A stretch of 64,000 bases of DNA from Pseudomonas sp. MN1F (GTDB taxonomy: Bacteria > Pseudomonadota > Gammaproteobacteria > Pseudomonadales > Pseudomonadaceae): positions 62,001 through 126,000 of the forward strand of contig NZ_VZII01000027.1 in assembly GCF_009391885.1 (NCBI RefSeq), written 5' to 3'. Shown here piece after piece: positions 14,307-38,909 of this stretch. Numbering within the stretch: position 1 is the first letter of the stretch; each line of letters begins with the position of its first letter. Below the pieces are notes generated by a model. The model was given only the letters and a program-made list of their open reading frames with translations. It ran no database searches and was not told the origin of the DNA. The translations under genes and the position numbers were made by a program.

Positions 14307-14783
14307 TCAGTCACGCCAGTGACGGTGCTTGCGGTGGCCATAGTGGCGGCCACGGTCGTAGTGGCGACGGTCGTCGTAGTCACGACGGTAGCGACGGTCG
14401 TCATGGCGATCTTCTTCATCGGCTTCTTTGCCCATGTAGTTGCCCAGTGCACCACCAGCGCCGCCGCCAGCGGCTGCACCGATGTAGCTACCGGTGGTGC
14501 CGCCCATCGAGCGACCTACCGCGTTACCGCCTGCGGCGCCCAATGCGCCACCGATGGCAGCCTCACCACGCTGGTGCTTGTTGGCACCTACGGCACTACC
14601 GGCAGCGCCGCCCAGGCCAGCACCGATGGTGCCGCCAGTGCTACCGCCGATGGACTGGCCCACGACTGAGCCCAGTACCCCACCCAATGCGCCGCCAATG
14701 CCGGCCTCGGTGGTGCCGCCTGCCATGGCAACGCCGCTGAGCAAGCTGAAAGACAACAACAGAATCGAGGAGTACTTCTTCAT
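14307..14783 (-). CDS. Secreted glycine-zipper protein with basic/acidic tail
   Basis: 158 residues. A cleavable signal peptide (MKKYSSILLLSFSLLSGVAM, cleavage after AMA) precedes a long glycine-zipper region (about 22-115) with repeats such as GGALGGVLGSVVGQSIGG and GAAAGGGAGGALGNYMG. Such sequences form membrane-associating helices. The last 40 residues are extremely rich in Arg, Asp, His and Tyr (DDRRYRRDYDDRRHYDRGRH) and are likely disordered. It is probably exported to the periplasm or outer membrane. No specific function can be assigned; it resembles small envelope proteins induced by stress in pseudomonads. Confidence 0.8.
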   Translation of the reverse strand: MKKYSSILLLSFSLLSGVAMAGGTTEAGIGGALGGVLGSVVGQSIGGSTGGTIGAGLGGAAGSAVGANKHQRGEAAIGGALGAAGGNAVGRSMGGTTGSYIGAAAGGGAGGALGNYMGKEADEEDRHDDRRYRRDYDDRRHYDRGRHYGHRKHRHWRD

Positions 14784-14895
14784 CGAGAAAGCCTCATAGG
14801 GATGACGAGGGCGAATTTGAGGCTAAGGCGGGCGGCTGGCAACGAAAATCCGACGAGTAACACGAGTTGTACACAATTCTCTAACTTACTGTATT

Positions 14896-14974
14896 TGCTA
14901 TGAAACTTTGTCTATTTTCGCTTGTCTGAGTTTATTGTGACAAAGCCCTGGACCTCGCGGTTCAGGGCTTTTTT
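14896..14974 (+). ncRNA. Candidate small RNA ending in a terminator (hypothetical)
   Basis: A promoter-like pair, TTGTAC (14867-14872) and TGTATT (14890-14895) at 17 bp, precedes an AT-rich stretch with no open frame. It ends in a strong terminator at 14942-14974 (AAAGCCCTG/CAGGGCTTT plus T6) on the plus strand. No plus-strand gene lies upstream to explain that terminator. The hairpin could instead end the minus-strand molybdoenzyme transcript, but the T tract is on the plus side. Confidence is low for the RNA, good for the hairpin. Confidence 0.35.
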
Positions 14975-14997
14975 CGTTTTTGCCGGGGCACTTCTGC

Positions 14998-17343
<2,346 letters not shown>

Positions 17344-37778: not shown

Positions 37779-37939
37779 GATGGTTTAGTCCGTTAGTCCA
37801 TTGTCGATTCTGGCGCAACGCCAGACGGTCGCAGGGCTGGCGGGCAGCGTGCGACGTTGCTTTTTAATGATTTGGGGGGCGGATGATACACCGTCGGGCC
37901 TCTTCGCGGGTGAACCCGTTTCTACAGGGACCGTGGTGA

Positions 37940-38126
37940 TTTTGTGAGGGAATTCTGAACTTGAGATCCAATGCTTCAGGATTGGGGGGTTGGGAATTAT
38001 CCTACGCGGCTAGTCGACCCTTCTCTGTTGGCGGGGAAGTGGCCCAGGGATAACGTTCCTGGGTTGCCAATTCCTGGTGACCGGGTGTGAGAAACCCGAC
38101 AAGGAGCTATTTCGGCTAGTCAGTTA
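37940..38126 (+). other. Structured non-coding leader, upstream part
   Basis: This stretch has no credible open frame but several short inverted repeats: CCCAGG/CCTGGG (38043-38048 and 38058-38063), CGGGT/ACCCG (38082-38086 and 38094-38098) and complementary GGAATT/AATTCC segments (37993-37998 and 38069-38074). The 9-mer CGGCTAGTC occurs twice, at 38007-38015 and 38113-38121. Together with the following cloverleaf this looks like one RNA leader, or the remnant of a mobile or retron-like RNA; that is inference. Confidence 0.4.
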
Positions 38127-38206
38127 TGGCGGTCGTACGCGGGCAGACTTCGGTCTGGCCGAGCTTTGTAGCTCCCTCGGTTTTCTCACCCCGTGTACGA
38201 CTGCCA
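38127..38206 (+). ncRNA. Cloverleaf-like structured RNA upstream of DUF3077-like gene
   Basis: An outer helix pairs 38127-38143 (TGGCGGTCGTACGCGGG) with 38189-38206, with two G-U or mismatch positions. Inside are a perfect CAGAC-TTCG-GTCTG hairpin with a UUCG tetraloop (38144-38157) and a second hairpin, either GAGCT/AGCTC (38161-38174) or CCGAG/CTCGG (38159-38180). Three helices around a small junction make a stable RNA element. From memory, similar leaders precede related small genes in P. putida; their function is not known to me. Confidence 0.55.
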
Positions 38207-38259
38207 CCTGAACCCGTGAGAAAGGTCCATGTGGTGGTTCTATTCAAGGAGCTGCTGTC

Positions 38260-38651
38260 ATGAAAAAATCGTACTTGATCCACCCTATGTATTAATCCAA
38301 CCCCCTTTGCGGCCGACTCGGCATTGACCCTGTTCCAGCATGCGGTAGCGAGCGTGCGCGATGAAGAGGGGCAGGCGCATGAGTGATGCCGCTAATACCA
38401 TCGTCACGGCAGGTGTAGAGACCTTCCTGGAAGCAGGAAACCCGACTGTGGACCTGCTACGCGTGCAACCGGGTATCCCGATCGACCATGCCTAGGAGCA
38501 TGTGTCGGTGTTGCTCGGCTATATCAAGCACCTTGTGCGCGAGGGGGATATGGAAGATGACCATAAGCTGTTGGGCGCTGCCGACTATCTGCTGGCCCTG
38601 GCCAAGGCGCTGATGAACGATATCGAGATTGCCAAGAACAAGGTGCATTGA
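38260..38651 (+). pseudogene. Decayed DUF3077-like small gene
   Basis: A good ribosome site (AAGGAG at 38246-38251) leads to an ATG, but the frame breaks at once. Restoring one A in the A6 run at 38263, one C in the C5 run near 38302 and removing one G at 38368-38371 gives a continuous protein: MKKIVLDPPYVL, PFAADSALTLFQHAVASV, MSDAANTIVTAGVETFLEAG, LLRVQPGIPIDHA. That is followed by an in-frame TAG at 38493-38495, then EHVSVLLGYIKHLVREGDME and AADYLLALAKALMNDIEI. The C-terminal half resembles DUF3077-type proteins. Four separate lesions indicate a pseudogene, although the homopolymer changes alone could be sequencing errors. Confidence 0.7.
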
Positions 38652-38909
38652 TTCGGCGGCCCTTTCGCGTGCAAGCCCGCCTCCACAAAGGGGGCCATTT
38701 GCCTAATCGAAAATTTGTTTATGCACAAGAGGCATTGCCGCCTTGCGCGAAAGGCATGCCGCTTCTCGATACCGCCGGTCTTTGCGCAAATACCTGTTTT
38801 TACTGGGCTTGAGGCCCATGCTGGAATAAGCCAATCGCTTGAAATAGCGCTTGGCTCCATCCACTCATCAAAAGCTTGTTCACAGAGTTATCCACAGGTT
38901 GTGCTGCGG
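38652..38909. other. Intergenic stretch without a supported gene
   Basis: A degenerate REP-like segment (about 38655-38700) and a single DnaA-box-like TTATCCACA (38888-38896) are visible; no coding sequence can be supported. Confidence 0.5.

Follow-up and report, generated by a model that had tools for sequence, protein, structure and literature searches.

A C4 antisense RNA at a decayed Pseudomonas operon and its paralogues before DUF6124/DUF3077-type genes

What is the compact, cloverleaf-like element at 38127-38206 of the window (the 64,000-nt stretch of Pseudomonas sp. MN1F DNA analyzed here), and how is it related to the small genes that follow it? The first-pass annotation had read it as a closing helix of 17 bp that encloses a pair of small hairpins, of which one carries a UUCG loop, lying about 50 nt before a ribosome site and a small DUF3077-like gene, and had proposed that it could belong to an undescribed class of cis-acting leader RNA linked to that gene family.

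The window element and the genes behind it

The proposed fold is borne out. The 80 nt have a minimum free energy of −45.7 kcal/mol, compared with a mean of −26.4 kcal/mol for 200 dinucleotide shuffles (z −6.65), none of which was as stable, and the opposite strand is less stable (z −4.28). When the whole window was scanned with the Rfam 15 covariance models, the element matched the C4 antisense RNA family, RF01695, at 69.3 bits (cut-off 45, E 2.1e-11), and it aligned full length to the model (1-87) with the three-stem architecture P1/P2/P3 in place (Table 1). The window RNA is a copy of this known family. Since it matches RF01695, and since the C4 and c4-a1b1 motifs were both published in 2010 (available text of PMC2864571), it is not a new class, and that part of the annotation is rejected. 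The scan of the window also returned the Pseudomonas sRNA P34 (RF02405) at 14680-15103, with 87.1 bits.

As a check on its proposal, the annotation had suggested looking for compensatory changes in the outer helix, and these are present. All 90 C4s of seven genomes (MN1F and six relatives) were aligned, and the pairs of P1 and P2 were counted; P3 was excluded, as the poor alignment of its variable loop leaves it ragged. In P1 and P2 together, 98.0% of the cells are paired, compared with 85.3% after shuffling; 18 of the 22 pairs have changes on both sides, and the covariation score is 0.515, against 0.250 for the shuffled and at most 0.125 for the slid versions.

The ribosome site also lies where it had been placed, with AAGGAG at 38246-38251 and an ATG at 38260, that is, 40-54 nt beyond the element. 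Both antisense segments of the C4 find complementary stretches in the same leader, downstream as well as upstream of the RNA. The model for the upstream motif, c4-a1b1 (RF03163), gave a weak match at 38050-38102 in a smaller search (18.7 bits, cut-off 46.7) and was unlisted in the wider search. When the window leader is folded by itself, the minimum-energy structure already includes the ribosome site in base pairs formed inside the leader. A simple scan of 37880-38300 for a sigma-70-like promoter found none. Further upstream, at 37995-38006, lies a AATTATCCTACG-like stretch that is common to several C4 leaders of this genome; that it forms part of a promoter or operator would be a guess.

Table 1. 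Features of the C4 locus in the window (positions are those of the window)
Feature	Position	Strand	Basis or remark
Putative upstream copy of targets, c4-a1b1-like	38084-38110	+	by complementarity; b1 38084-38094, a1 38103-38110
C4 antisense RNA (RF01695), family boundaries	38122-38211	+	Rfam match and fold
Outer helix P1, 5′ strand	38127-38143	+	17 bp, G-U pairs included; covariation over 90 C4s
P2 hairpin, UUCG loop	38144-38157	+	fold; 5 of 5 pairs changed on both sides in the 90-sequence alignment
P3 hairpin	38158-38181	+	second small hairpin inside P1
First antisense segment (P3 loop)	38168-38175	+	complementary to 38248-38255, 7 standard pairs and one G-U
Second antisense segment, between P3 and P1	38181-38189	+	complementary to 38216-38224, partly to 38084-38094
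Outer helix P1, 3′ strand	38190-38206	+	pairs with 38127-38143; covariation over 90 C4s
Downstream target of second antisense segment	38216-38224	+	perfect 8-nt run at this locus
Ribosome-binding site and downstream target of P3 loop	38246-38255	+	6-nt perfect run at this locus
Gene 1 relic	38260-38295	+	11 codons, then stop; intact gene at this distance in 15 paralogous C4s
Broken gene 2, DUF3077 (PF11275)	38379-38651	+	51.6 bits; one in-frame TAG at 38493-38495

The small gene itself did not hold up as annotated: its ATG is present, but it is followed by so short a frame that what stands there is a relic, not an intact gene, and its sequence reads as frameshifted. A DUF3077 match does exist, but in a second reading frame that is interrupted by a stop codon, past which the frame continues to match DUF3077 at 23.7 bits (cut-off 21). 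Since the operon has decayed while the C4 and its target sites survive, the window C4 is a leftover. In genome G024, a C4-like stretch 77% identical to the window over 112 columns is followed by an intact 91-codon gene beginning M-K-K-Q-V-P-D-P-P, and a further stretch is 82% identical to part of the window gene 2. In genome G045, the flanks of the same site are 95% and 89% identical to the window, and the counterparts of 37946-38317, which spans the entire C4 and the beginning of gene 1, and of 38392-38545, which covers over half of gene 2, are absent, while short pieces of the genes remain. These two comparisons suggest that the window copy represents an intermediate step in cassette loss.

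C4s and small genes in this genome and in other genomes

The MN1F genome holds 16 C4s over the Rfam cut-off, of which 15 precede an intact small ORF, the window copy being the broken sixteenth. The 15 intact first genes have 79-93 codons, begin M-(K/L)-K-x-V-P-D-P-P, and start at position 43-56 past the C4; five of their proteins matched no Pfam or NCBIfam family at E 1. The second gene is often DUF3077 (PF11275): 14 of the 17 DUF3077 matches in the genome lie within about 900 nt downstream of a same-strand C4, with the exceptions on contigs C10, C16, and C49, and the sole DUF6124 match is on C13, a contig without a listed C4. The c4-a1b1 model reached E ≤ 0.5 at 13 of the 16 C4 loci and exceeded its cut-off at five. 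On contigs C48, C53, and C54, C4/DUF3077 cassettes lie close to contig ends, so the copy number may be understated in this draft assembly.

The link to these genes was also found when the search started from a protein. With a gene-1 protein of this genome as the query and the RNA unused, 53 genome loci were obtained, 52 in records titled Pseudomonas and one in a record titled Pantoea, and Rfam placed a C4 over the cut-off just upstream at every one of them; two of two viral contigs found by a related protein also carry a C4 over the cut-off. In six single-contig relatives, picked for carrying 9 to 20 C4s, a same-strand C4 lies at most 900 nt upstream of 23 of the 28 DUF3077 matches (E 0.001; 0.03 expected) and of 31 of the 41 DUF6124 matches (E 0.01; 0.05 expected). 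After overlapping DUF3077 and DUF6124 matches were merged, 49 of 62 genes in these six genomes had a C4 within 900 nt and 13 had none. The tie to DUF3077/DUF6124-type genes that the annotation had suggested is confirmed, but it is not exclusive: among the 90 C4s of the seven genomes, the next gene is an ORF of the P-x-P-P type in 61 cases, another ORF in 16 (some of them DUF3077/DUF6124), and none in 13, where "none" means that no ORF of 45 or more codons has its ATG 40-60 nt downstream and where the window is included. The start codon stands 42-60 nt past the C4 (median 50) among loci selected by this 40-60 rule.

DUF6124 and DUF3077 genes are abundant in Pseudomonas. C4s occur in 109 of 119 genomes of the genus (MN1F included), in 1 to at least 33 copies, the numbers being lower bounds in 16 genomes because the best 33 candidates were scored per genome; in the class, they occur in 24 of 369 genomes (MN1F included) when the best 11 candidates are scored per genome. 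One record titled Pantoea sp. Ap-967 has two C4s and a relative of gene 1, either through transfer or because the record is misnamed.

With regard to mobility, spread by plasmids is rejected: 72,556 plasmid records gave no DNA match to 38030-38660 and no tblastn match to one gene-1 protein. Spread by known phages is rejected on 50,697 phage records, which gave no tblastn match to two gene-1 proteins or to one DUF3077 protein, yet one DUF3077 protein matches the PHROGs family phrog_36471 and two viral contigs carry a C4 cassette, one of them beside tail and lysis genes. On viral contig L239 (749-1241), the C4 and gene 1 adjoin tail completion, tail terminator, and Rz-like genes on the opposite strand (three of the four neighboring frames were matched), an order that we take to be reminiscent of P2-like phages.

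Insertion beside tRNA genes was considered and set aside; a tRNA or tmRNA gene is near the C4 at 5 of the 90 loci. In three of the seven genomes, a C4 lies at most 1.5 kb from a tmRNA gene (L009, L078, and L115), and a tRNA-Thr(tgt) is found near the window C4 and near L110. At four loci (L006, L204, L205, and L206), the small SRP RNA gene is found no more than about 0.9 kb from the cassette, which hints at an old insertion site common to them. In genome G103, three tandem C4s (L126, L114, and L071) occupy less than 500 nt at 1541708-1542194, the first two without an ATG by the 45-codon/40-60 nt rule.

Several kinds of protein are encoded behind C4s. In the genus, C4s also precede DUF6124, DUF3077, a 52-codon family, an MxxYMPLTGHD family, and a BRO-N protein, where one or a few members of each family were tested and the rest were grouped by eye. 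An N-terminal K-x-(V/T)-P-(D/N)-P-P is common to first-gene proteins with otherwise unrelated-looking remainders. The BRO-N protein (PF02498; anti-repressor families in PHROGs) was found at the Pseudomonas locus L028, 49 nt past the C4, and matches 449 phage records, all at less than 60% identity and none over 80% of the length. Six further C4s (L026, L029, L030, L032, L033, and L036) are followed by a BRO-N-like protein, judged by sequence similarity. Such cases inside Pseudomonas possibly link the phage and chromosomal versions of C4, and some ORFs after C4s in other genera look, by eye, like phage antirepressors. Among the paralogues of the MN1F genome, no antirepressor match was found in Pfam (five gene-1 and two gene-2 proteins) or in PHROGs (two gene-1 proteins and one gene-2 protein). 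Known anti-phage defense proteins were considered and rejected, as none of six proteins matched the PADLOC models at E 0.1. For a DUF6124/DUF3077-like relative from genome G015, a strand pair and two long helices are predicted (pLDDT 89); at E 0.001, neither the PDB nor the viral libraries contained a fold similar to this confident model, and its sequence had no convincing match in the PDB.

Predicted pairing of C4s with adjacent targets

The two segments of each C4 that were scored are the P3-loop portion and the linker that follows it, with limits set by eye on the copies of the MN1F genome. Ungapped complementarity, with accessibility ignored, was computed against about 30 nt up to the start codon and against 19 nt around the 3′ end of the C4. 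The set comprised 118 loci (16 from MN1F, 74 from the six relatives, and 28 other best-scoring loci of the genus); 14 were excluded because no ORF reaching 45 codons starts with an ATG 40-60 nt downstream, so that 104 were used, and the start at the window was placed by hand.

In these 104 loci, the loop scored 21.8 with its own ribosome site and 13.4 with swapped ones, and the linker scored 17.7 with the stretch just past its own C4 and 10.9 with swapped ones. In the upstream region, own pairs also exceeded swapped pairs (18.1 versus 15.5 and 15.9 versus 12.8), and 0 of 10,000 permutations reached the own value in any of the four comparisons. As controls, the segments were crossed, the loop being scored against the near stretch and the linker against the ribosome site; neither combination showed an excess over swapped pairs in the genus loci. 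Outside the genus, all 28 of the 28 C4 loci fetched were scored with a similar outcome: not one of 10,000 permutations reached either true pairing, and the controls gave no excess. When the 104 loci were pooled, the own target ranked first at 53 loci for the loop and at 65 for the linker, but at 9 and 12, respectively, in the upstream region, a weaker result than that of the within-genome test, as expected if species share loop types.

The within-genome test covered 78 of the 90 C4s in the seven genomes, 12 having been dropped by the start-codon rule. With the pairings summed, the own target was uniquely best for 75 of the 78 C4s, and from the side of the target the own C4 was the unique best for 74. 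A perfect run of at least 6 occurs in the linker pairing at 77 loci, compared with 11.4% of swapped pairs, and in the loop pairing at 68 loci, compared with 8.8%; the 78 loci have 72 distinct loop runs. The exceptions are L006, which pairs slightly better with the L016 target, and one C4 each in G107 and G098 for which the own target is not uniquely best; L009 has no perfect loop run longer than 4 nt. The margin in favor of the own target is often small, and at the window it is 39 versus 35 for the next-best target, that of L014. Duplex energies for the 16 C4s of the MN1F genome gave a less clear picture than the ungapped scoring: the own target came first for 11 of the 16 in the upstream region and for 6 of the 16 in the downstream region, where the window C4 ranks its own target fourth.

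Proposed mechanism and comparison with known systems

In phage P1, according to the available text of PMC5320573 and PMC8201110, C4 is excised from a longer transcript and base-pairs with its target mRNA close to the ribosome site. By analogy, we propose, at a probability of about 0.8, that the element is a C4 in the leader of a two-gene operon and that each C4 represses translation of its own operon. Gene 1 of the operon would encode the small protein with the M-(K/L)-K-x-V-P-D-P-P start and gene 2 the DUF3077 protein. The leader would be transcribed and the C4 inside it cut out, as P1 suggests, with RNase P as the enzyme expected for a C4 RNA; the C4 would then pair with the same mRNA, hide the ribosome site, and shut off the gene, so that translation of gene 1, and perhaps of gene 2 too, would be held down by the C4 of the same leader. 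On the same model, the upstream copy of the targets would be a second pairing site. Given that paralogues have different loop segments, each C4 would be expected to act chiefly on the operon it belongs to. The term cis-acting leader in the annotation is imprecise; the evidence favors an antisense RNA whose pairing partners are the leader and the ribosome site of the very transcript that carries it.

For the window copy, the odds are even that it is a dead relic in which the C4 and the genes are both inactive, a reading that concerns this locus only and is compatible with the mechanism proposed for the paralogues. The apparent frameshift in gene 1, the TAG in gene 2, and the absence of the matching stretches from the same site in G045 all point that way, while the score of the C4, its intact 17-bp helix, and the retention of both target pairings argue against it. 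A broader alternative, which we consider unlikely, is that the C4s are directed in trans at other genes or at invading phages instead of at their own operons, in line with the proposal made for Acinetobacter Group 1 sRNAs. The available text of PMC5320573 interprets multi-copy C4s with variable loops in this way, the L014 target is not far behind as a partner of the window C4, and tandem C4s without a start codon by the rule exist; however, almost all C4s in the within-genome test pair uniquely best with their own adjacent target, and cognate pairing is seen outside the genus as well.

Much less probable than action in trans is an undescribed cis-acting switch that senses a ligand or condition by refolding. 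The family is a known one, and its variable loop tracks the target sequence from locus to locus, although the leader position, the stable fold, and the pairing of the ribosome site in the minimum-energy leader fold would all suit it. The compensatory changes with G-U pairs, the steady same-strand distance to the start codon, and the target complementarity likewise make it highly improbable, slightly more so than the refolding switch, that the element works at the level of DNA, as a repeat or a small mobile element with a hairpin used for transposition, and not as an RNA. What speaks for a DNA element is the number of copies, the location of those on C48, C53, and C54 near contig ends, and a possible counterpart in P. 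fluorescens, the reported 101-bp repeat family R178 with internal inverted repeats (available text of PMC2718517).

Repression of each operon by its own C4 would provide a regulator and a testable mechanism for DUF6124 and DUF3077, function-unknown families that are common in Pseudomonas, and the about ten to thirty largely insulated antisense pairs per cell would make a useful natural set for the evolution of RNA specificity. In the open-access literature searched, we found no paper on DUF6124 and no link between C4 and DUF3077/DUF6124; for DUF3077, the available text of PMC9630843 describes furfural-evolved P. putida strains in which a DUF3077 pseudogene has gained a single inserted base. 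Within that literature, we found no description of DUF6124/DUF3077 genes as C4-linked units, present many times per Pseudomonas genome with diversified and largely non-overlapping pairing.

Compared with the immI operon of phages P1 and P7 (C4, icd, ant; RF01695; available text of PMC8201110 and PMC5320573), the Pseudomonas C4s share the covariance model, the three-stem fold, and the two antisense segments, as well as a target at the ribosome site of the next gene and a putative upstream target copy. They differ in that they precede DUF6124/DUF3077-type genes instead of icd and ant, and in that they are chromosomal, at 1 to at least 33 copies in the genomes of the genus that have them, with loops that differ between paralogues; at the window, the C4 is followed by the gene 1 relic and DUF3077 rather than by icd and ant. 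Judged by position only, the DUF6124/DUF3077 proteins may be analogous to Icd/Ant. More speculatively, and at less than even odds, the C4s of Pseudomonas chromosomes, in sets that can reach thirty-odd or more switches insulated from one another, could be a domesticated and diversified phage immunity module in which DUF6124/DUF3077 replace Icd/Ant. If so, the diverged loops would insulate the paralogues from each other, and perhaps also from incoming phages with the same module, and loss or dilution of one C4 would turn on only its own small protein.

The c4-a1b1 motif (RF03163), which sits before C4 and contains complementary target copies, has matches at most of the MN1F C4 loci, as given above, and a match below the cut-off at the window. 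The likeness to phage antirepressor operons is seen at L028, the one Pseudomonas C4 of this kind that was tested, where the C4 precedes the BRO-N protein, whereas the gene-1 and DUF3077 proteins that were tested have no such domain. The Group 1 sRNAs of Acinetobacter baumannii resemble the Pseudomonas set in being many C4-like RNAs per genome with a variable loop, and their processing pattern is reported to be like that of P1 C4; the available text of PMC5320573 identifies no targets for them and names no link to DUF3077/DUF6124. The Pseudomonas results raise the possibility that C4s present in many copies, those of Acinetobacter among them, switch adjacent targets locally.
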